A stretch of DNA of 64,000 nucleotides from positions 310,001 through 374,000 of the forward strand of contig JAGTXO010000027.1 in NCBI GenBank assembly GCA_019448385.1, read 5' to 3'. The position numbers and the translations under genes were made by a program. Below are positions 3,321-63,456 of this stretch, piece by piece. The stretch is from Diacronema lutheri. Taxonomy: Eukaryota > Haptophyta > Pavlovophyceae > Pavlovales > Pavlovaceae. The stretch's first letter is position 1. Each line of letters starts with the position of its first letter. The notes under the pieces were generated by a model that ran no database searches, had not been told where the DNA came from, and saw nothing but the letters and a program-made list of their open reading frames with translations.

Positions 3321-3652
3321 GCGCGGCTGAGAGTGCCCCCTTCGGTCGCCTGTGCCGGCGGCATCGGCACTGGCGCGCCGCTCCGCACTCCGCGCTACCC
3401 GCGAGCCGAGCATGGCATGCGGATCTGAAACTCGACCATGCTCCCACCTGCTCAGTGCCCCGCTGAGCTGCCGTCAGATTTGCGCGAGACCGGTGGACGT
3501 GCCCGGCACGCGCGGGATGGTGCAGACGGAGTACGATCTACAGCGCTCCACGCGCATGATGCTCACCGTCCCTCCGCACGTTCCCGGCCGCGTGCCACGA
3601 CGCGCGTGGAGCACGCAGCGCTCATGTCGTGCTCGAGGTGCGGCCGCCCGTG

Positions 3653-4048
3653 TCACGGGCTCGGGTTGAGACAGAAAGCCGCCTGAGAAAGCCAAATGGA
3701 GCGGGCGCGCACGCGCGGTTGCGGGCGTGAGACGCCGTGCGCGGCCGAGCTGGGCGCGAGGATGCCCCGGCCACGCCATCCGCGGCGGAAGGCGAGCACG
3801 GCTCGCGTCGCGCGGCTCTCGACCGTGCTCGTCACCTGGCGTCTGAGCGGTGGCGGCGGACCCGTCGGCCCAGGGGGGGAGAGAGAGAGCGAGGACATCG
3901 CCGTGATGCTTCGGTAGATTGGCTGGTCGTCCTCGGCGGTGTAGACCGGCGCGGGGCGCTCGGTGCCGGACGGAGGTGGATGGCTCCACCCGCACGGCGC
4001 GGGGAACAAGCTCGGCGGCACGACGGGCAGGCCGTCAGCCTCTCGCAT
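3653..4048 (-). CDS. Possible small protein, doubtful
   Basis: An ATG-initiated frame on the minus strand encodes about 131 residues with a credible, less Arg-rich composition in its first half (VYTAEDDQPIYRSITAMSSL). The second half is Arg/Ala-rich and looks like noise. The rest of 3321-4441 shows no convincing exon on either strand. It may be one exon of a gene, a 3' untranslated region of the next minus-strand gene, or nothing. Confidence 0.25.
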   Translation of the reverse strand: MREADGLPVVPPSLFPAPCGWSHPPPSGTERPAPVYTAEDDQPIYRSITAMSSLSLSPPGPTGPPPPLRRQVTSTVESRATRAVLAFRRGWRGRGILAPSSAAHGVSRPQPRVRARSIWLSQAAFCLNPSP

Positions 4049-4441
4049 CGTTCTGCGGCCACGCCTCTTATTGCGCGGGCGGCCGCCTCCCCCGCTCTCC
4101 CCGCCTTTTTCTCCGCCGCTGCGTTTCAATACATGTTTGTGGTCTGTTTGGGGGTCGTGACTGTGAGTCATGACAGAGCGGTTTCCGCACCGAGGCACGG
4201 CACGCCAGCCATGCCTTGCCCGCGATGGGAAGGGGATGCGAAAAAAGGGGCCGCGACAAGAGGGGCTTCGACCGCTGCGCGCCTCAGCGCCGCAGCCGGC
4301 ACTGCCGAGCTGCGCGGCGCCGGCATCCAAATGGCCAACTGCGGCAAACAATTGGCGGCAAGCCGGCAACCCCACCCCCGCGGGCCTCGTCGGCAACGAG
4401 CCGACCGCGACCGCCGCGCTGCATCGCGCCAAGCTATGCCC

Positions 4442-5032
4442 CTAATCGGCGGCGCCGCGCGCGGCGCCGTCGCTGATCGAAACGCACTCGTTGCTCTCTG
4501 CCTTGCGCTTCAGGCCGGGGATGCCCTCGCAGGCGAAGGGCCCAAAGTACGAGGCGGTGCTGAAGCTGTCGGTGTCCTTGGTGCGCGGTGGCGGTACCGC
4601 GTACACGGCGCCCGCAAGCGCGAGCGACTCGTCGAGTGCGGCGAGCAGCCGCTTCACCTCCGCCGCCGCCGTCGGCAGCGACCGGTCGCGGCCTGCGGCG
4701 CTGATCTTGGCGACAGTCTGCTCAAGCGTGCTCGCGAGCGAGCCTGCCTTAGCCGCGTCGAGCCGTGGCGCGAGCGCCGCCAGAGCCGCCGGCGCGGGCT
4801 TGAGCTTGAGCGCGGCAAACTGCGTGACGTAGATAGGCGCGTCCGCGTCGGTGAGCGTCGGGATGGCGCTCAGCAGCTCGGCCGCGCTGTCACGCGCGGC
4901 GGCAAGCTTGCGCACGTCTGCAGTCGGTGACTCAAGCGCGGGTGCGCGCTGCGGCGCGAACGGAACGCTCAGCGCCAGCGCCGCCACGCGCCCGAAGAGT
5001 GCCCTGCGAGACGCGACCGGCGACACAACCAT
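4442..5032 (-). CDS. Probable thylakoid-lumen protein (PsbQ-like helical?)
   Basis: A single exon of 196 residues. The N-terminus has a twin-arginine-like motif (SRRALFG) followed by a hydrophobic stretch and AxA-type cleavage context (APQRAPALES), which is typical of lumenal proteins delivered by the Tat pathway. The mature part is Ala/Leu-rich and helical (LAALAPRLDAAKAGSLASTL), followed by a Cys-containing C-terminus (YFGPFACEGIPGLKRK). Size and helical make-up resemble PsbQ-type extrinsic photosystem II proteins, but I see no diagnostic motif, so that name is inference. It is divergent from the amino-acid transporter at 5117. Confidence 0.65.
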   Translation of the reverse strand: MVVSPVASRRALFGRVAALALSVPFAPQRAPALESPTADVRKLAAARDSAAELLSAIPTLTDADAPIYVTQFAALKLKPAPAALAALAPRLDAAKAGSLASTLEQTVAKISAAGRDRSLPTAAAEVKRLLAALDESLALAGAVYAVPPPRTKDTDSFSTASYFGPFACEGIPGLKRKAESNECVSISDGAARGAAD

Positions 5033-5116
5033 CTTTAATTTTTTCGCGCGAAAACTTGGACCGTCACAAGAGTTGAGGTTCATCGGACCTCGAGAGGCTT
5101 GAGAGCAAGTGCGCAG
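5033..5116. promoter_or_regulatory. Bidirectional promoter with E2F-like palindrome
   Basis: These 84 bp separate two divergent start codons. They hold the perfect 14-bp palindrome TTTTCGCGCGAAAA at 5041-5054, which fits the E2F/DP consensus TTTSSCGC on both strands, preceded by a T-rich run. The spacer is markedly AT-richer than its surroundings. Confidence 0.55.
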
Positions 5117-6919
5117 ATGGGCAAGGAGCCGCCGCGCGGCGAGGCGTACGCCGACCCGCGCGTGCCGTTCCTCGACCCGGACCCGTCGCGGCTGCCGATT
5201 GACAAGCCTGCGAAGCGGCTCACCCTCGCGCGCTTCCTCGGCCTGCGCAACGGCTCGACCCGCGGCTCGATTTACAACCTCTTCTCGTCGGTGCTCGGCG
5301 CAGGAGTGCTCGGGCTGCCGCACGCGGTCGCGGCATGGGGGCTGGTGCCCGGCCTAGTGATGGTGGTGCCGTTTGCGCTCATCTCGCTCTACACGCTGTG
5401 CTTGCTCGGCTGGTCGGGCGAGCTCACCGGCGCCAAGTCGTATCGGCAGCTCGCCGAGCTGACGCTCGGCGATCGCTTCCCCGTCGTCTCGCGCCTCGTG
5501 TCGGTCGCCATCTTCTTCAACACGTTCGGCTCATTGGTGGTGTACCTGATCGTGCTTGGCGACCTCATCCCCTCCTTTGCGCGTGCCGCGCTCGACGCCG
5601 CCGGCGTCGACCCGTCCGCGCCGCCCGCCGTGCTCTCGCCGCTCCTCAGCCCGTCGCTCGTGATCGTCGCGATGGGCGGCCTCTTCGGCCTGCCTCTCTC
5701 GCTCGTGCGCGACCTGTCCATGCTGCGATACACGAGCTTCCTCTCGATGGGCTCGATCCTCTTCCTCGCCGCGCTCCTCGGCGTCCGCTTCCTCCAGGCC
5801 GTCGGCGCTGGTGAGCCGGCGACAGCAACGGCGGCCGCTGCGCTCGCGTCGCGGCCGCGCGGCAGCGTGGCGCAACTGCTCGGCGGGTTGCCCACGTTCA
5901 TCTACGCCTTCTCGTGCCACTTCAACTTCTTCTCGGCGGTCCGCGCGCCGCGCGCGCGAACGCGCGGGGCTCGCGCGCTGCGAACGCCGGCCGGCGTGGC
6001 GCGCGCGCGCGCGTTGCGCTCGTCCTCGCTGGCCCCGCCGCGGCGTACCGTCGCACTTCTGTCCGGACATCCGGATCTGTCCGGACATCCGCGCTTGCGC
6101 TCACGCGCGCGCGCGCGCGTCTCTCTTCGACGTCACGCCGGCGTGGCGCAGGTGGAGGCGCTCAAGCGAAGGTCGCGCAAGGCCGTCTTCCAGGTGCAGC
6201 TCTACGCGATCTCGCTCTCGCTCGCAACGTACGTCGCCATCGTGTCCGCGGTGCTCCTCACCTATAACGATCGGACGGCTTCTGACTTTCTGATCAACCT
6301 GCCGACGGCGGACGGCGCGTTCACGGTCGCGAAGGTGCTGTACACGTCGGTCCTCATCGCCGCCTACCCGCTCAACTGCCACCCGTGCAGGTCTGCCTTC
6401 CTCGAGCAGGTCGGCGCGTGCGGTCGCTCGGACGCGGCACGCACGGCCGCGACCGTCACGCTCGTCGCGCTCTCGATCACACTCGCGATCGTCTGCCCGA
6501 ACATCGCCGTCGCGCTCTCGCTCGTTGGAGGCACGGCCACCTCATCCATCCTGTACATATTTCCCGCGCTTTTCTTCCTCGCGGCGACCGTCGACCAGCC
6601 GACGGCCGCGACGGCCCAGCTCGAGGCCGCCGCGGCGCGCGAGCTCGCCGACGCGCGCGCCGACGCGGCGGCCGACGCGGCGGAGGAGGACGACGACGAC
6701 GAAGACGACGCGTATGTGCCCGCGCAGCTCATGCAGCCGTCGCCTGCCGTGCGCGTCATGCGGCAGGGCTCGGCAATCAAGCACGTCGGCGGCCGGTGCG
6801 CCGGACTTGTCCGGCTGCCACATCATCGGCTCGCGTGCAGGGGCCTCGTCGCGCTCGGCGGCTTTGCGTGGTTCTGCTCGGCGCTCGCGCTCGTCGCGCC
6901 CGCCGCGCCCGACAGCTGA
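5117..6919 (+). CDS. Amino acid transporter, AAAP/SLC38 family
   Basis: Membrane carrier of the amino acid/auxin permease family. Exons 5117-5938 and 6152-6919 join in phase 0 (intron GTCCGCGCG...GCGCAG, 213 nt and without a stop), giving 529 residues. The N-terminal signature GSIYNLFSSVLGAGVLGLPH (TM1) is followed by about ten hydrophobic helices. The exon junction falls inside the conserved FNFFSA/VEALKRRSRKAVFQ loop, where relatives have NFFSIYxELKxRSxxK, which supports the intron. An acidic Glu/Asp tract lies in the last cytoplasmic loop before a final helix. Substrate cannot be read from the sequence. The chosen ATG is the first in frame after the divergent promoter. Confidence 0.88.
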   Translation: MGKEPPRGEAYADPRVPFLDPDPSRLPIDKPAKRLTLARFLGLRNGSTRGSIYNLFSSVLGAGVLGLPHAVAAWGLVPGLVMVVPFALISLYTLCLLGWSGELTGAKSYRQLAELTLGDRFPVVSRLVSVAIFFNTFGSLVVYLIVLGDLIPSFARAALDAAGVDPSAPPAVLSPLLSPSLVIVAMGGLFGLPLSLVRDLSMLRYTSFLSMGSILFLAALLGVRFLQAVGAGEPATATAAAALASRPRGSVAQLLGGLPTFIYAFSCHFNFFSAVRAPRARTRGARALRTPAGVARARALRSSSLAPPRRTVALLSGHPDLSGHPRLRSRARARVSLRRHAGVAQVEALKRRSRKAVFQVQLYAISLSLATYVAIVSAVLLTYNDRTASDFLINLPTADGAFTVAKVLYTSVLIAAYPLNCHPCRSAFLEQVGACGRSDAARTAATVTLVALSITLAIVCPNIAVALSLVGGTATSSILYIFPALFFLAATVDQPTAATAQLEAAAARELADARADAAADAAEEDDDDEDDAYVPAQLMQPSPAVRVMRQGSAIKHVGGRCAGLVRLPHHRLACRGLVALGGFAWFCSALALVAPAAPDS

Positions 6920-7433
6920 CGGCGCGCGCGTGCGCGCCACGAGGCCATTGGCGCGCGGCTGCGTCCTCGTCGGTTGTTTTGATTGTTTCTACCCTGCGCT
7001 CTGCGCGCTCGCGCGCGCGCCATGACCTCGGGTGGCGTCGCGCGGCTGGGCGCGCGCGCGGCAGGCGCAACCGCGCAAGCCGCAAGGCGTGTTGCATCGC
7101 CGCGGCCGCAGGCGCCACAGGCGCGGGCCTCAAAGAATGACATCAGGGTGTTTTGCGCTTTGCGCATTCCGGTGTGCGCCCCACGCCGCACCCGACGCGC
7201 ATCGCCGTGAGACTGCGCTGGCGTGCGCGGCGCGGGCTGGACCAACGTTTTCATCAACATTAGAAACTCGACCGCCATGCTGCCTTGCTCAAACATCGCA
7301 CCGCCGCTAACGGCAAGGGTGGTGGACTGGTGGTGCGGTGCTCCGCGCGCAAGCGGCGAGCCGGGCGAGGCTCGCACTCTGACCGCGCACACCCGCGCCG
7401 CGCGCCAACACCGCGCGCGCACGCGCAGCCGCC
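6920..7433. other. Gene-free spacer
   Basis: This spacer holds GC dinucleotide runs and an AT-richer stretch near 7250-7310 just before IFT57. I see no convincing exon, RNA gene or repeat in it. Confidence 0.5.
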
Positions 7434-9743
7434 ATGGAAGAGCACGACGGACAGGAGATGGGCGACCAGCAGGCCGCAGCCGGCGGCGCTGACGCGGCGG
7501 CGGCGGGCGGCGCACGCGGCGGCGGCGCGCGCGGCGGCGAGGGCGACCAGGCGGCCTTCATGATGATGGACGAGATCGTCGAGCGGCTCAAGCTGCTCAA
7601 TTACGAGCTCACCTTCTTCCCCAAGGGCTTCCGCCCGCTCACGCGCGTCTTCTTCGCGATGCCGTCGTCCAACCCGGCGGAGCAATTCCATTACTTCACG
7701 ACGCTCGCGACGTGGCTCATGAACAAGCTGGGCAACGACGCGAAGCCGCCGAGCCACTACGACGATCCGAACTCGACGGTGGCCAACCTGAGTGCGCACA
7801 CGCGCGCGCCGCGCTCCGCGCGTGCGCGAGGGCGCCGCCGCTCGGCGCGTCGCTCGCCACCGACCGGCGCGGCGCGGCCCGCGCCGCGCGCGCTCTCGCG
7901 CGCGCGCAGCGATCGAGCTGCAAAAGCTGGGCGTGCCCAACGACTACCCGCCGATCAAGGTGAAGCAGGGGCACGGCGACGCCGTCTGCTCCATCCTCCT
8001 CTCGCTCCTCGAGCGCATCGGCCACGAGTGGAGGAAGCCGTAAGGCGCACGCGACCCGACCCCCCCCCCCCCAACCCCCGACCGCCGCAGCACGCGCCGA
8101 GCAGGTCGCGCGTTACACCCCACGCGCCGCGCGCGCCTCGCCCTCGCGCACCACGTGCCGCGCCGGCAGCTACCACGCGCCCGACGACTACGCGGAGGAG
8201 GCGCAGGTCGACGACGACGCGCCCCTCGACGCGGACGCGATCGCGGACGACGTGGGCAACGGGACGGAGGACGAGGAGGACCTGTACTTCGCGCACGCGG
8301 CCACCACGATCCCGGAGGAGGCGAACAAGTGCGCACGCGAGGCGCAGGGAGAGCGCGCGGGTGGACGCGCGAACGGAGGGGCGCGGGGTGGGAGCGCTCG
8401 TTCGCGGCGCGGTGGGCGCGTGGCGCGGTGGGCGCGCGCGCGGCGGCCTGCTGCGCGCGAGAAGGCGTCGAGGCGACGGACGGGCGCGCCGCGCTCGCGG
8501 GCGCGCGTGTGGCGCGTCGAGACCTCAGCTGCCCCTCTGCTGCGCGCGCCGCGCGCGCACGATGGCTGACGCACGCGCAACCCTGCACGAACCCCCGGTC
8601 ACGGCGGATCCGTGCGCGCGCGCGTGCGCGTGCGCGCGCGCGTGCGCGCGCGCGCGAGCAGAGCGGCACCGACGGTGATAGAAGCGACGGTCGAGCCCGA
8701 GGAATGGCGTCTCGAGATGGAGCGCGTGCTCCCGCAGCTCAAGGTGACGATCGTCTCCGACGGCAAGGAGTGGCGCACGCACGTCGCGCAGGCCAAAGTA
8801 CACCAGCAGGCGGTGAACGAGCGTTTGCCCGTTTCCGCGGGTGCGTCTGCGCGCGCACCGCCGGCGTCTGCCGGAGCCGCAGCGACCGCCGCGCGCCCTG
8901 CGCGCCGCCTCGACTTGCGCCCGCGCGCGCGGCGCTCGCCGCCCACGCGGCTCCGTCACAGAGCGCGCGCTCCGTCCGCCCGTCCCGCCCGCCCGTCCCG
9001 CCCGCCCGTCCCGCATCCCCGCCCGTCCTGCCCGCCCGTCCCGCATCCCCGCCCGTCCCGCATCCCCGCCCGCGCCGGCGCGCGCAGCCTCGCTCGCGAG
9101 AATTCTTGCCGAGCTCACGGAGACTACGAGCATGGTCGCAAAGGTCGAGGCCAAGCTGAACGCGCAGTGCGCGACGGACATCTCCGAGTATGCGGGCAAG
9201 CAGGCCGACTTCACCGCGAAGCAGGAGGTGCGCGGGAGGTCGCCGCGCGGCCAAGGGCACGGGACGGCGGTGGGTTGAACCCACCGAGCGTGCGCGGCCG
9301 CCGTGCGCTTGACGCACGTGGCCGCAGCCGACGCTCGGCATGCGCGCCCCGCGCGCGGCTTTCTTCGAGGCTCATGCGCGCCGCGCTCACGCGCGCCGCG
9401 CGCGCTTCGCGCCGCGCGCACCTGCGGCCGGCGCGGCCCGGTCGGCGCGCGCGCGCAGGTGTACAACAAGTCGACCGAGGAGATCAACAAGCTGCAGAAC
9501 ACGCTGACGAGCGTAACTGACGAGCTGCAGCAGATCAAGTCGCGGATGGACGAGCGTGGTTCGGCGATGACGGACACGTCGCCGATCGTTAAGATCAAGG
9601 GCGCGCTCACGAAGATGAAGGCGGAGGTAAGGGCGATGGAGGTGCGCATCGGGGTTGTCTCGCACTCGCTTGTGCTCAAGCGACTCGGCGCCAACTCGAT
9701 GACGGCGCGCTCCGCGCTGCAGCCGTCCATCCTCGCCGGCTGA
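7434..9743 (+). CDS. IFT57: Intraflagellar transport protein 57
   Basis: IFT-B subunit needed to build and maintain flagella. Six exons: 7434-7791, 7910-8039, 8170-8328, 8662-8840, 9088-9227, 9459-9743. All junctions are phase-consistent and give 416 residues, close to the usual size of about 430. The N-terminal calponin-like domain shows MMDEIVERLKLLNYE, FRPLTRVFFAMPSSNPAEQF and YDDPNSTVANL. A linker with an acidic stretch follows (DDVGNGTEDEEDLYF), then EWRLEMERVLPQLKVTI and a long coiled coil ending TSPIVKIKGALTKMKAEV, all family hallmarks. Introns start GTGCGC or GTAAGG; the second has a 13-nt poly-C run before its acceptor. Presence of this gene says the organism has a flagellate stage. 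Confidence 0.95.
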
Positions 9744-9774: not shown

Positions 9775-9881
9775 TAACGACGCTTACAGGCGGGTCAGCA
9801 GGAGGGGCGCGCACGGGGTCGAGGCTGGACAAACGGAGCGAGCGAAAGGGCGCACGCAACATCAGGCCGAAATCAGGGCGT
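9775..9881 (-). mobile_element. Retroelement 3'-end fragment, copy 1
   Basis: From CTAACGACGC at 9775 to about 9881 the sequence matches 15583-15690 with few changes, including CTTACAGGCGGGTCAGCAGG and GCACGCAACATCAGGCCG. By analogy with the copies that have target-site duplications, the element reads on the minus strand and ends ...GCGTCGTTAG. Homology stops abruptly near 9881, as in a 5'-truncated copy. I could not find a clear duplication here. It lies 31 bp after the IFT57 stop. Confidence 0.6.
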
Positions 9882-15582: not shown

Positions 15583-16572
15583 ACGAACGACGCTTACAGG
15601 CGGGTCAGCAGGAGGGGCGCACACGGGGCCGAGGCGTGTCAGAGGGAGCGAGCGAAAGGGCGCACGCAACATCAGGCCGAAATCAGGGCGTCGACCCTGT
15701 GCACGCCGGCAGCGGGAACGGCCGGGACGGCAAGGACGCGGCAGGACGCGGTATGGGCGGACACCCACACACGCCTGCCGAGGCCGTCCACACCGCCGCA
15801 GGCGTCCACATCCGCCTGGACGCCGTGGGCGGCGTGGCGGTGTGGCGGCGCCTGCCCGCGCGCCATCTGCGCACGCGCGAGCAGGAGCTGCGCGTGCCCA
15901 CGCACGACGCACGCGGCGAGCTGGGGGCGCATGTGCCGCTCGAGGGCCGCGCGGGCGACGTCGCGCGAGGGCGCTCCCATGCGCGCCATCCACGCGTCCG
16001 CGCCCATGTGCGAGAAGGTGGCGAGCAGGTTGGCGAGGCCGGCCGACCACTCGCCGAACGAGCCGATGACCAGCGCGCGGATCGGCGGGAACGAGTTCAG
16101 GCGCGCCTGCATCGGGCTCACCTGGCCCGGCGGCATGCCGAAGAGCTCCTCGTCGAGTTGAGCGCACGCGCGCCGCCGTTCGCCGCCGACGGCCGCCGCC
16201 CGCCGCTCAGCGGCCTGGCAGCGGCGCGTGTCCGACTGGGCGTAGCGCGTGGGGCAGTACGAGATCGACTTGAGCTCGCACAGTGTCTGCACGAGCTGAG
16301 GGGCCGAGCCCGCACCGTTGAGCACGACGACGAGATCGACGGTGGGCACGCGCCGACGCCGCAGGGCCGCGCGCCCGGCCGGCGGCACGCCGGCGAGCAC
16401 GGAGCCAAAGATGTCCGCGTCCTCGCGCCGCGCGTAGGTCCCAGCGTATCCGCGAGCCAGCGAGGCGAGCAGGTTGAGAGCGGGGTCGTGACGAAGCTTC
16501 GCGACGTGGTCGTGGGCGACGCCCGGTGCCGCCGCGAGCGCGTCGCCGAACGCGCAGCTGACGTGGCGCCGA
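15583..16572 (-). mobile_element. 5'-truncated non-LTR-type retroelement, copy 2
   Basis: The insert is bounded by the 13-bp direct repeat ACAACAACAAAAT at 15570-15582 and 16573-16585, a target-site duplication. Read on the minus strand its 3' end is ...CTGTAAGCGTCGTTCGT with no poly(A). The minus frame over 15672-16572 encodes DLVVVLNGAGSAPQLVQTLC, MPPGQVSPMQARLNSFPPIR, ALVIGSFGEWSAGLANLL and a C-terminal RPQLAACVVRGHAQLLLAR, a pattern I associate with the C-terminal part of reverse-transcriptase ORFs of algae, from memory of the family and not tested here. Truncated at its 5' side, so a dead copy. It sits 42 bp downstream of the MRS2 stop. Confidence 0.65.
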
Positions 16573-36174: not shown

Positions 36175-36432
36175 ACTAACGGCTAGAGGGGGAGGGGGGG
36201 GGAGGAGGGAGTGCTTACGTCAGGACAGCGGGGTCAGCACCAGCTGCGGGGGAATCGAGTAGCCACCAATGTCGTCGATCCCCGCGCATCCCGGTCACCA
36301 GCGAGCGGGCAGCGAGGCCCGACGGGCCCAAAGGGCCCGCACGTGCCTAACCGCCGCGCGCTGCCGGTCGCGTGCCGCCGCCCGCGTGCAGGCGATACAC
36401 GCCGTCCAAACCACCGCACGCGTCAGCGCGAG
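36175..36432 (-). mobile_element. Retroelement copy 4, 258 bp with target-site duplication
   Basis: The insert is bounded by CTTTAATAT at 36166-36174 and 36433-36441. It begins ACTAACGG on the plus strand, like the CTAACG ends of the other copies, and bases 36310-36395 resemble 18994-19075 of copy 3 (GCAGCGAGG..., GCCCAAAGGGCCC). No coding capacity is seen. It sits just downstream of the plastid protein gene ending at 36477. Confidence 0.6.
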
Positions 36433-36476
36433 CTTTAATATTGTTTGTACACCTCGGGGGGGATGTGTGAGGCGCC

Positions 36477-60318: not shown

Positions 60319-61185
60319 TCAGTTGACGGCGAGGTCATGCGAGTCGGCAACGAGCCACTCCATCCCGAGCCAGATCGTGTCCATCGAATCGTCCGCCGAC
60401 TCGTCCGCCGTCGAGGACGACTTCGCGTTCGGCGAGCCGTTGAGCGGCGAGCCGTTGAGCGAGAGGGACAACGAATTCTCGCGCGAGCACACGAGCGGCG
60501 GCGGCGGTTGCGGCGGCTCGTGCTGCGCGCAGGCGCTGTCGCGCGTGGGCTCGTCGTGCGCGGGCGCAAAGTTGAGTAGATCGTGCAGGTCGATGTCGTT
60601 GAGCGTCTCGATCTCCGCCTTCACCGCGCGCGCGTGCTCGGCCGGCGCGGCAAAGGCCACGGCCTCGGCCGCGGGCGCAGCGACCACGGCCGGCAGCAGC
60701 GGCGGCGTGTGCGCGGGCGGCGCGGGTGCTGGCGCAGCGCACTCCGCACCTCCACCCGCGAGAGCGGGCGCGGCGGGCGGCGGCGTGCTGGGCGCGAGGA
60801 GCAGCCGCTCCCAGCCGACCGGCATCGACAGCGCGCCGGCGTCGGCGCCTCCAGCGCCGGTGGGCAGCGGCAGAAGGAGGTCGCCGTGGAAGTCAATCAC
60901 CTTGCCCGAGAGCTCGGCGAGCTGCATCGACCGCGCGCGCTCGAGCTCGAGGAAGTCCTTGCGCCAGCGCTGCCGCCGGTTCTGGAACCACACCTGCACC
61001 TGCCGCGGCTTCACGCCGAGCATCGTCGCGAGCTGGTGGATGGTGTTCTTGTTGGGGCGCGGAGACGACGCAAAGACCGCCTCAAGCACGTTCGTCTCGT
61101 GCACTGACACGCGCCAGCGCGATCGCGAGTTGGGCGCATCGTCGGGCGCCGCCGTGTCCGCGCTGTGCAGGTCCGCGTCGCTCAT
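60319..61185 (-). CDS. Homeodomain transcription factor
   Basis: Single exon, 288 residues from ATG 61185. The homeodomain spans about residues 22-80: RWRVSVHETNVLEAVFASSP, PNKNTIHQLATMLGVKPRQV, QVWFQNRRQRWRKDF. Recognition helix WFQNRRQRWR carries the invariant W, F, N, R. The rest is Pro/Ala-rich with an acidic, Leu-rich patch (EIETLNDIDLHDLLNFA) like a transactivation segment, and a Ser/Asn run (SLSLSLNGSPLNGSPN). No TALE insertion is seen between helices 1 and 2. DNA-binding nuclear regulator by family; targets unknown. Confidence 0.9.
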   Translation of the reverse strand: MSDADLHSADTAAPDDAPNSRSRWRVSVHETNVLEAVFASSPRPNKNTIHQLATMLGVKPRQVQVWFQNRRQRWRKDFLELERARSMQLAELSGKVIDFHGDLLLPLPTGAGGADAGALSMPVGWERLLLAPSTPPPAAPALAGGGAECAAPAPAPPAHTPPLLPAVVAAPAAEAVAFAAPAEHARAVKAEIETLNDIDLHDLLNFAPAHDEPTRDSACAQHEPPQPPPPLVCSRENSLSLSLNGSPLNGSPNAKSSSTADESADDSMDTIWLGMEWLVADSHDLAVN

Positions 61186-61675
61186 GATCACCCCCCGAGG
61201 CCCGAACTCTGAGATGCCAAGGGATGCAGGTAGCGCCCCCGGTATCTGGAACGCTTGATTACGCTGCTTTTCAAAATGACTGTCGCCGTTGGGAAAGGGG
61301 CGCGCGCGCGCGCTCGGCGTGCAGAGCGCCGCGGATGCGCACGACGCAGCGTGCGCAATGAGAGCCCTGCGCGCTGCCACCCGCGCGCGCGCCGCCCTCT
61401 CCGGCGCGCGCGAGAGCGACAAACGTCTCGGTGGGCGCGTTGCGCTGTGTGCCGAGCGCTGCCGCGCGCGACGGCTGTTTAGGAAGAAAATAGAAGACAG
61501 GTCATAGTCATCTCGTGTAAGAGTCCTCAGCAGCTTAAACGCTCCCGCGCGCGGGAAACAGCGACGACCATGGCCGCCAGACCCCCCGCGCCGCGCCTTC
61601 AACACGCAACGGATTGCCACGCGGGCAAGCCGCACGCAGCCGCACTCGAGCGCGCTTCGCGATGGGGCACGCGCG
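61186..61675. other. Spacer upstream of the Fanzor fragment
   Basis: I searched all frames here for the missing N-terminal half of the Fanzor (in particular a RuvC-I D-P/x-G motif) and saw none. AT-richer patches occur near 61255-61290 and 61480-61530. Confidence 0.4.
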
Positions 61676-62242
61676 ATGTGCATAGGATCCTGCGGGACGC
61701 GACCGCTGCTCAACGAGGACGAGCGCCGCGAGGCGCGCGAGCTGCTGCGAGGCGCGTACGGGCACGAGTGGTTCCGCACGCGCCGCATGCACGCCTACTC
61801 CAACCACCAGCGCGCGCACAGCAGGATGGTCGACGCGTTCGCGGCGACGTACGGCGGGCCGGGCGAGGTCGTGATCGCGGTCGGCGACTGGAGTCTGCAG
61901 CTGCACTACCCCAAGTTTGGCACGTGGCACGAGCGCGGCAAGATGCCGTCGCAGACGATGGGCATCGTCGACGCCTTCCGCGCGCGCGGCTACACGATCG
62001 GCTTCATCGACGAGAGCTACACGGCGCAGGACTGCAGCAAGTGCGACGGCAAGAGCTGCTGCGACTTCTTCACCAAGACGCGCCGGCAGGTCCGCGTGCG
62101 CAAGCACGACCCGTCGAGCCCGATGACCAACCGCGTCGTCAAGACGCTCGTGCGCTGCGCGTGGTGCCGAACCATCTTTGACCGTGACTTCAACGCCGCG
62201 CGCAACATCTACAAGAAGGCGCTCGAGCTGCGCGGGCCGTGA
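61676..62242 (+). CDS. Fanzor (TnpB-like RNA-guided nuclease) C-terminal fragment
   Basis: 188 residues matching the C-terminal half of Fanzor proteins, the eukaryotic relatives of IS200/IS605 TnpB. FRTRRMHAYSNHQRAHSRMV and EVVIAVGDWSLQLHY correspond to the region before RuvC-II. The RuvC-II glutamate is in IGFIDESYTAQDCSKC, the split zinc ribbon uses CSKC and CAWC, and RuvC-III is FDRDFNAARNIY. RuvC-I and the whole guide-RNA-binding N-terminus are absent upstream, so the fragment cannot be a working nuclease alone. An open frame extends somewhat upstream of ATG 61676. A strong hairpin starts 5 nt after the stop. Such genes occur in algae and in large DNA viruses of algae; lateral origin is inference. 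Confidence 0.8.
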   Translation: MCIGSCGTRPLLNEDERREARELLRGAYGHEWFRTRRMHAYSNHQRAHSRMVDAFAATYGGPGEVVIAVGDWSLQLHYPKFGTWHERGKMPSQTMGIVDAFRARGYTIGFIDESYTAQDCSKCDGKSCCDFFTKTRRQVRVRKHDPSSPMTNRVVKTLVRCAWCRTIFDRDFNAARNIYKKALELRGP

Positions 62243-62247
62243 GCGAC

Positions 62248-62314
62248 GGGGCTGCCGCCGGACACGAGCGCGCGCGCGCGCGCACCGCGCGCTCGTGTCC
62301 GGCGGCGCAGCCCC
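62248..62314 (+). ncRNA. Strong hairpin 3' of the Fanzor frame, candidate omega-RNA part
   Basis: GGGGCTGCCGCCGGACACGA (from 62248) pairs with the reverse complement of TCGTGTCCGGCGGCGCAGCC (ending near 62314), a stem of about 27 bp with one 2-nt bulge and a (CG)n loop. In TnpB and Fanzor systems the guide RNA scaffold lies at the 3' end of, or just after, the nuclease gene, so position fits. Transcription is not shown; a terminator or element-end palindrome would look the same. Confidence 0.4.
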
Positions 62315-63456
62315 CTCGCCGCTCGCTCGCGCCCGAGCTGACGCGCGCGGCCGCGCGCGTGGCGAGCTCCTCCGCTCGCCACGCACCGCGGTTGCCGACG
62401 CGCGCTCGCGCAAGCACCACCACCACGCCGCAAGGCGCACAGACCTGCACGCTCCGTACGGCGGCGCTGCTGTCGGAGGCAAGTTGCTTGCCTTCAGCAG
62501 CAGGCCGTCGGGCCGATCCGCCCCGTGCGTGTGCACGGGGCGGTCGGGCACTTGGGTACCCGCGTCCGCGGATCGCGCGCGCACAGGCGCGCGCGGCTGC
62601 GTTCGCGCACAGGCCGCTACTAGGTGTGCGGTCCCCTCTGCTCGGAGTTTGCGCCGATGGCACAGGCCGCCGGCGTCACGCAAACGAGGTCACATCGTCT
62701 GCCGCAGTTTGGGCGAGCCCAGTTTGGGCGAGCCCAGCTGTGGGCCCCCGACCGTGCTGGTCGGGGGCGCGTTGCTTTCTGGATGCGGCGGCCCCAGAGA
62801 GCGCGCCCCTGCCCCTGTGGAGAGCGTGCGTGCGCGCGCCGACCGCAGGGGCCAGGGTTGCGATCATGTATGGGGCGCACAGGCGCCCTATATATGTCGA
62901 CGCGCCGCATCCTCAAGCGCAGGTCCTCAAGGCCGGCATCGGCTCGAACGACTCGGCCGCAATGCCGCGCGCGCGCGGCTGCCGTCCGAAGGCAGCTAGC
63001 TTTCCAACGCACCCGCTCACGCTTGATCGCGGCCGTGGGAGCTGCTCGCCGACATGCTGCAGCGGGTCGCACGCGCGTCGCCGGAGCTCGAGACTCTCGA
63101 GCGCGGCGAGAAGCACGACCCATCTTTGCGAGCACGCACTCACGAGCCGTCGGCTTGCGCGCGTGCGCGCCGAATGTGCATGCACATGCGCTCGCACTTC
63201 CGAGGCCGGCCCTTCCGAATTCCGATGGATGACAAGTGACAAGGCGATTGCAAGCCAACGAAACGCACGAGCACAGAGGTGGGCAGGGAAATGGGAGAGG
63301 CGAGAGCGGGTGGAGGGCAAGTTACGCAGGCCGTGGCGCACATTTCAAGGTCTTCCCGAGCGACCGGCAACTCGCCGACAGGCGAGCCCCTGCGCGTGGG
63401 CGCGACGACGGTATGAGGCGGTGCGGACAAGCTTGGCCGTTGGCAGGGAACTATCA
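62315..63456. other. Non-coding stretch with several hairpins
   Basis: No exon I can support. Perfect stems occur at about 62519-62544 (CCGCCCCGTGC / GCACGGGGCGG), 62746-62770 (GCCCCCGACC / GGTCGGGGGC) and 62875-62890 (GGGCGC / GCGCCC), the last followed by TATATATG. AGTTTGGGCGAGCCC occurs twice in a row near 62705-62735. Confidence 0.5.

Follow-up and report, generated by a model that had tools for sequence, protein, structure and literature searches.

A probable young, 5'-truncated relic of a Fanzor element in the genome of the haptophyte Diacronema lutheri

Is an open frame that encodes only the C-terminal half of a Fanzor nuclease the product of a recent truncation, the visible part of a split gene, or a small protein that the host has domesticated? 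An initial annotation of one stretch of the Diacronema lutheri genome described such a frame and put forward all three explanations. We examined the whole stretch (the window; 64 kb, positions 310001-374000 of contig C14) and searched the genome (43,492,796 bases in 103 contigs). The features of the window that concern the protein are:

61676..62242, + strand: open frame of 188 amino acids; codons 1-9 are flanking DNA and codons 10-188 are the Fanzor C-terminus
61698..62896, + strand: 5'-truncated copy of the Fanzor repeat, 1,199 bp; the 3' end is intact and the 5' break, at 61698-61703, is inside the coding region (1181/1199 bases shared with the L016/L029 copy by blastn)
61982..62209, + strand: zinc-ribbon region, with the RuvC-II glutamate (IDESYT) at 62006, CxxC at 62033-62044, CxxC at 62156-62167, and RuvC-III (DRDFNAARN) at 62180 (from PF07282, the motif places, and alignment with the genome's other Fanzor lineages)

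The 188-residue frame extends to 244 amino acids if it is read from stop to stop (61508-62242, + strand). In the 188-residue version, IDESYT lies at residue 111, CSKC at 120, CAWC at 161, and DRDFNAARN at 169; we take IDESYT to hold the RuvC-II glutamate and DRDFNAARN to be RuvC-III. The glutamate, both cysteine pairs, and RuvC-III had all been listed as retained, and they are. The Pfam model for the zinc ribbon of TnpB and Cas12f (PF07282), the kind of profile that the annotation had suggested as a check, matches residues 103-178 at 38.8 bits (E = 1.1e-9), above the cut-off of 26.3. The guided_TnpB model from NCBIfam and the Cas12f models from PADLOC match the same residues weakly. Because 19 other loci in the genome share this C-terminus (94-99% identical as protein), this frame is not a chance occurrence. 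Together with the 98.5% identity to a longer element that is described below, the PF07282 match bears out the idea of a Fanzor relic, reduced to its C-terminal nuclease half, in an algal genome.

Searches against other collections gave less. Among solved structures, the top hit of the 188-residue frame was an unrelated fucosidase (E = 0.031), and the Fanzor SpuFz1 came second (E = 0.19), over the right stretch of the protein; since it ranks behind the fucosidase, this match is within the noise and counts for little. In UniRef, we found one protein, also from D. lutheri, which is 99% identical over 73% of the frame. It is 138 amino acids long (n=2).

Nothing upstream restores the missing half. 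When we compared a full-length frame to the entire 64 kb with tblastn (E up to 1e-3), it matched 61751-62239 only, so RuvC-I and the N-terminal half are indeed missing, as had been noticed. Read from stop to stop, the frame does have a lone aspartate (in DPPR) 147 residues further upstream, but this residue precedes the ATG and is encoded by flanking DNA. The window copy lacks the RuvC-I aspartate and the N-terminal guide-binding half because its 5' break is downstream of RuvC-I. The frame itself was correctly delimited as an open frame, but comparison of the copies shows that its first nine codons (MCIGSCGTR, 61676-61702), including the ATG, are flank and not element: homology to the element begins at 61698-61703. 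Also, the conserved YTSQDC has become YTAQDC (S117A), in this copy alone of the 20 copies, so that the [TS][TS]xxC motif fails.

A search of the genome's contigs with PF07282 gave at least 148 matches. We took the first 20 of these, with 40 bits or more, as the window's family, and we read the 19 loci other than the window's. All 20 carry the window's Fanzor C-terminus. In 12 of the 20, a core of 629-632 residues is open as an uninterrupted single frame (93-99% identical to the first of them). RuvC-I is present in every one of these cores, in the same alignment columns, as FDPG in 11 and as FDPF in L016. The full-length copies that the initial annotation had proposed searching for therefore exist. 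The spacing from RuvC-I to TSQDCSKC is 182 residues in 11 of the cores; for the other (L013), our script picked an earlier FDP, and the spacing was not listed. By regular expression, all 12 fit the pattern D-X(125,275)-[TS][TS]-XX-C4 zinc finger-X(5,50)-RD, which is given in a passage of PMC3627910. A fuller relative (P0001) matches PF07282 at 38.2 bits (cut-off 26.3). In the remaining eight copies, which are the window's and those in L009, L011, L012, L015, L023, L025, and L026, the core is truncated, shifted, or stopped.

An AlphaFold model of the 632-residue core, made from 12 near-identical sequences, had a mean pLDDT of 35.5 and a pTM of 0.22, so the assignment to this fold rests on the motifs and the profile matches. 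We also searched protein databases with the core, both excised (E up to 0.001) and within the long frame (E up to 1), and obtained no relative among 7,991 and 7,997 candidates, respectively. Among solved structures, the core alone hit SpuFz1 at E = 0.38, behind four unrelated rows, and a profile of the 12 sequences hit no Fanzor up to E = 5. With E up to 0.001, the genome contains no match to the IS607-type serine recombinase (PF00239) or to the Y1 transposase (PF01797), and we do not classify the element as IS605- or IS607-type. The absence of an IS607-type resolvase fits membership in the Fanzor1 clade and does not demonstrate it.

The DNA upstream of the Fanzor core has features of its own. 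In L029, an 808-residue frame that precedes the Fanzor gene has no match to a Pfam family and belongs to another repeat. The frame upstream of the core in L016 (minus strand, 3505-8547) and in L010 (2611-3551) contains tandem repeats of about 98 residues, whose number seems, by eye, to vary between loci. Nine of the 20 copies have the end of another repeat ahead of the Fanzor part, at a poly-G tract (around 8549 of the joined L029+L016 stretch). This preceding repeat is found without Fanzor in L032 (contig C40), which suggests that the two were fused end to end and later amplified.

The window copy itself (61698-62896) is 98.5% identical (1181/1199 bases, L016) to the 3' end of this multi-kb element, and its right end, ...CCCTATATATG, is common to other copies. 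It starts at residue 454 of the core, 77 residues after the RuvC-I aspartate. To its left is a homeobox gene on the minus strand, with a likely start codon at 61185, so that the two are head-to-head and about 510 bp apart; to its right is a gene with a BART domain. Given the near-identical fuller copies with RuvC-I and a break 77 codons downstream of that motif, recent truncation is the explanation that we retain. The window copy is very probably a young 5'-truncated relic of a recently active D. lutheri Fanzor element, dead on arrival. The protein fragment is almost certainly dead: as the entire N-terminal half is gone, along with one RuvC carboxylate out of three, we infer that it lacks nuclease activity.

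Could the host nevertheless have kept the fragment? The zinc ribbon with RuvC-II and RuvC-III might act, for instance, as a repressor that binds DNA close to the homeobox gene, and the frame is clean and has its own ATG. The 138-residue UniRef protein (n=2) shows that short forms are predicted as genes. It has K and S where the window copy has T and A, so it derives from other copies. Relative to the majority of the 20 copies, the window's fragment has no synonymous changes and three replacement changes: H36R, which is shared with other copies, and K83T and S117A, which are private to the window, with S117A altering the conserved TS motif. Of the 1611 possible changes in the fragment, 360 would be synonymous, 1194 would be replacements, and 57 would create a stop. 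Three changes thus carry a risk of about 10% of a stop, and a frame that is intact after three changes is what we would expect by chance. At this age, an open frame is not evidence of function, and its cleanness reflects youth. We see no sign of selection on the fragment, with numbers that are too small to address weak selection. We consider domestication to be very improbable. A split gene, in which RuvC-I and the N-terminal half would come from an unseen upstream exon, is harder still to credit. Its precedent is the CRe Fanzor1 genes of Chlamydomonas, which have 5 or 10 exons according to a passage of PMC3627910. However, the full-length frame has no further match anywhere in the 64-kb window, the core is a single frame in 12 of the 20 relatives, and the upstream side is occupied by the homeobox gene on the opposite strand.

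If the window copy is a truncated relic, how did it arise? We searched the genome with the last 200 bp of the element and found 48 matches, which are 38 primary places and 10 inverted matches within the hairpin. Of the 38 places, 32 reach position 198 of the query or later, which is to say that they share a 3' terminus. The 5' breaks are scattered: 24 copies with placeable breaks have 23 different ones, with only L037 and L039 sharing theirs, and three copies retain just 39-46 bp. We placed the breaks on the joined L029+L016 stretch, and for divergent copies they are perhaps imprecise. This tally leaves out copies in which the element runs off the piece (L014, L015, L017, L021, and L027), copies nested in other repeats (L012 and L016), copies without the 3' terminus (L024, L047, and L048), and unread places; L043 and L044 are one duplicated site and were counted once. 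Within the tally, L009 also holds an upstream piece and so is an internal deletion, L023 lacks the 3' terminus, and L025 and L026 have altered 3' termini. L011 starts where the Fanzor part starts in longer copies and may mark the true 5' end. As another candidate for the 5' end, we considered position 3172 of L029+L016 and dropped it, as E12, L032, and L033 look alike to its left by eye.

A fixed 3' end with variable 5' truncation, as seen in this family, is a trait of copying like that of non-LTR retrotransposons. LINE-like copying often leaves target-site duplications. Across 20 copies, there is no excess of short ones (the mean match is 3.75, versus 3.35 in swapped pairs). Within 1 kb of ten copies, we found none that were convincing, and the 6-bp GACGCG at the window copy is within chance. 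We propose that copying is polar: it would begin at the fixed 3' end and frequently terminate early, which would give a common 3' end and scattered 5' breaks. The fuller copies encode a Fanzor with RuvC-I, RuvC-II, the zinc ribbon, and RuvC-III; after the gene comes a long structured 3' region, which closes with a hairpin. At the window's locus, copying would have ended within the coding region, 77 codons past RuvC-I and about 510 bp upstream of the homeobox gene.

Two kinds of copying could be involved, and both are compatible with a relic. We give about an even chance to reverse transcription in trans by a resident element with an RVT_1 domain (LINE-like). Polar 5' truncation, down to 39 bp, and the intronless core are as expected for this process, and the genome has 16 matches to RVT_1, 13 of them above the cut-off. 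Also, L010 has a truncated Fanzor start that directly abuts the tail of a relative of the RVT_1 element, an arrangement that template jumping would produce, although a nested insertion could equally account for this adjacency. (Over 319 residues, the relative's protein, taken from L029, and the C-terminus of L049's RVT_1 protein share 65.5% identity.) On the other hand, the 20 copies show no excess of target-site duplications, the 3' ends of the RVT_1-type element and the Fanzor element are not clearly alike, and nothing shows the RVT_1 reverse transcriptase acting on Fanzor RNA. One-ended transposition of the Helitron2 type, as invoked for the Fanzor elements CRe-1 to CRe-3, seems possible and rather doubtful. 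The same pattern of truncated 5' ends and intact 3' ends is described for CRe-1 to CRe-3 (PMC3627910), and in D. lutheri there is one match to Helitron_like_N in the genome and a hairpin at the element's 3' end. But this is a single RepHel-like match, the 26 right flanks share no target or flank motif, and the candidate 5' ends have no convincing inverted repeat with the 3' end (matches are 10 bp or shorter, with the intact 5' end not fixed and copies nested in repeats). Furthermore, this hairpin extends to the very last base of the element, while the 3' hairpins of Helitrons are described in PMC3627910 as subterminal. Our guess, from the genome sequence, is that RNA-templated copying is the better explanation than Helitron-like rolling circles.

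Fragments of the RVT_1 element, or of its relative's tail, are also present in the window, at 36213-36435, 15783-16554, 15614-15720, and 9804-9881 (all on the minus strand, 73-99% identical). Elsewhere, three RVT_1 copies lie in a row at a spacing of about 7.5 kb (L049 and C71:996101-1011779). The final stretch of the RVT_1 protein, with an ELK motif, presumably resembles a restriction-type nuclease; it has no match in Pfam.

The relic keeps all of the element's 3' non-coding region, which makes a ghost-like guide locus possible. The features of this region are:

62243..62642, + strand: first part of the 3' non-coding region, strongly self-complementary; a long hairpin follows the stop codon immediately (RNA fold z = -7.84 versus 100 shuffles)
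62643..62896, + strand: last 254 nt of the 3' non-coding region, a candidate omega-RNA scaffold (RNA fold z = -7.77; covariation)
62865..62896, + strand: terminal 14-bp hairpin, whose final base is the element's final base

The variable flank, which would be the guide, begins at 62897, and across 26 aligned 3' ends, the right flanks share no sequence or motif. As a control for the z-scores, 4 of 45 random pieces of the window scored below -4, and three of these overlap this element, which leaves 1 of 42 others. For covariation within the 254 nt, we used 19 distinct copies (22 aligned) and the structure of the window copy. This fold has 96 pairs, and 95.8% of cells are paired across the 19 distinct copies, a measure that is biased towards this fold because the structure was derived from the window copy. 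Changes on both sides of a pair occur in 13 cells in 6 pairs, as compared to a mean of 4.0 cells in shuffles, and none of 500 shuffles, which do not keep the relatedness of the copies, reached the covariation score of the fold. One of the five measures, further pair types, was not significant (326/500 shuffles). If the structure is slid by +1, there are 8 double-change pairs versus 6 in the true structure, yet these are 8 cells versus 13; other slides give 1 to 3 double-change pairs, and under sliding, pairing falls to 35-48%. The terminal hairpin alone does not covary significantly (113/500 shuffles for cells paired and 62/500 for the covariation score).

These observations suggest that the 254-nt fold may be an omega-RNA scaffold, kept whole by the relic. 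Both the structure and its covariation support a putative omega-RNA locus. The palindromes at the 3' end could instead act as DNA. An Rfam search with the last 254 nt (E up to 0.1) gave no match, and in the literature that we searched, we found no published description of a covarying 254-nt 3' fold that ends at the last base of its element. A further conjecture, which we consider unlikely, would join the two roles: the structured 3' end would be both the omega-RNA scaffold and the start signal for a reverse transcriptase acting in trans. Each truncated copy, including the window's, would then be born as a protein-less guide-RNA locus with its new flank as the guide, and it would load full-length Fanzor produced at other loci to cut the uninserted allele.

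The genome has other Fanzor lineages. An apparent second family accounts for 117 of the at least 148 matches to PF07282, with near-identical scores (30.5-31.5 bits) and often with frames of about 1,015 amino acids. Its C-terminus, which we read in two of the 117 places (L050 and L051), shares 29% identity with that of the window copy across 124 columns. At the start of contigs C1, C6, C8, C12, C26, and C29 lies the 3' end of a Fanzor of the second family, with the match 669-862 bp from the contig start. An association with telomeres could explain this, as could breaks in the assembly at repeats; in the two contig starts that we read (L050, C26:1-1200, and L051, C29:1-1200), we saw no telomere repeat. 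Further lineages are found in L053, L054, and L056 and in L055: a sister of the window's family (IDESYTSKLCSRPGCRG) and a more distant one (LDEYRTTKACSRPGC).

As a relic, the window copy is ordinary, and its value is as a pointer to a recently amplified family of Fanzors in a haptophyte. The initial annotation could not name the type of element; the element can now be described, short of naming its transposase. A compact haptophyte genome holds 12 open-core copies among 20, along with a sharply bounded and covarying 3' RNA structure, which provides a concrete candidate for the omega-RNA and for the guide boundary. The young truncated copies bear on how Fanzor elements that lack a transposase move. 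Among the literature matches listed, in a search whose coverage leaves out many journals, we found no report of a Fanzor family in a haptophyte.

The closest parallels are in a green alga and a fungus. In Chlamydomonas reinhardtii, the Fanzor1 elements CRe-1, CRe-2, and CRe-3 are non-autonomous, and their copies are frequently truncated at the 5' end and almost always intact at the 3' end, which passages of Bao and Jurka 2013 (PMC3627910) ascribe to one-ended transposition by Helitron2. The same passages describe genes with 5 or 10 exons, ends that resemble those of known Helitrons, and insertion after TTTT or at T-rich sites, often with flanking duplications of 7-19 bp. The D. lutheri family likewise has a Fanzor gene in an algal repeat family, with 5'-truncated copies that have intact 3' ends. 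It differs in that its core is intronless and in that we found no Helitron-like end, target motif, or duplication.

In Spizellomyces punctatus, SpuFz1 is present in multiple copies, with both full and partial genes, and ghost loci keep the structured RNA end without the protein, as described in parts of Saito et al. 2023 (PMC10432273). There, the omega-RNA is placed between the stop codon and the right end and includes a guide segment. Spu-1 elements are bounded on each side by a 30-nt inverted repeat, and the ghosts span from repeat to repeat. In contrast, the D. lutheri copies are truncated at the 5' end, and we found no inverted repeats. What the two systems share is a multi-copy Fanzor with full and partial copies and a protein-less locus that keeps a structured, RNA-like end (in D. 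lutheri, as judged from its genome sequence).
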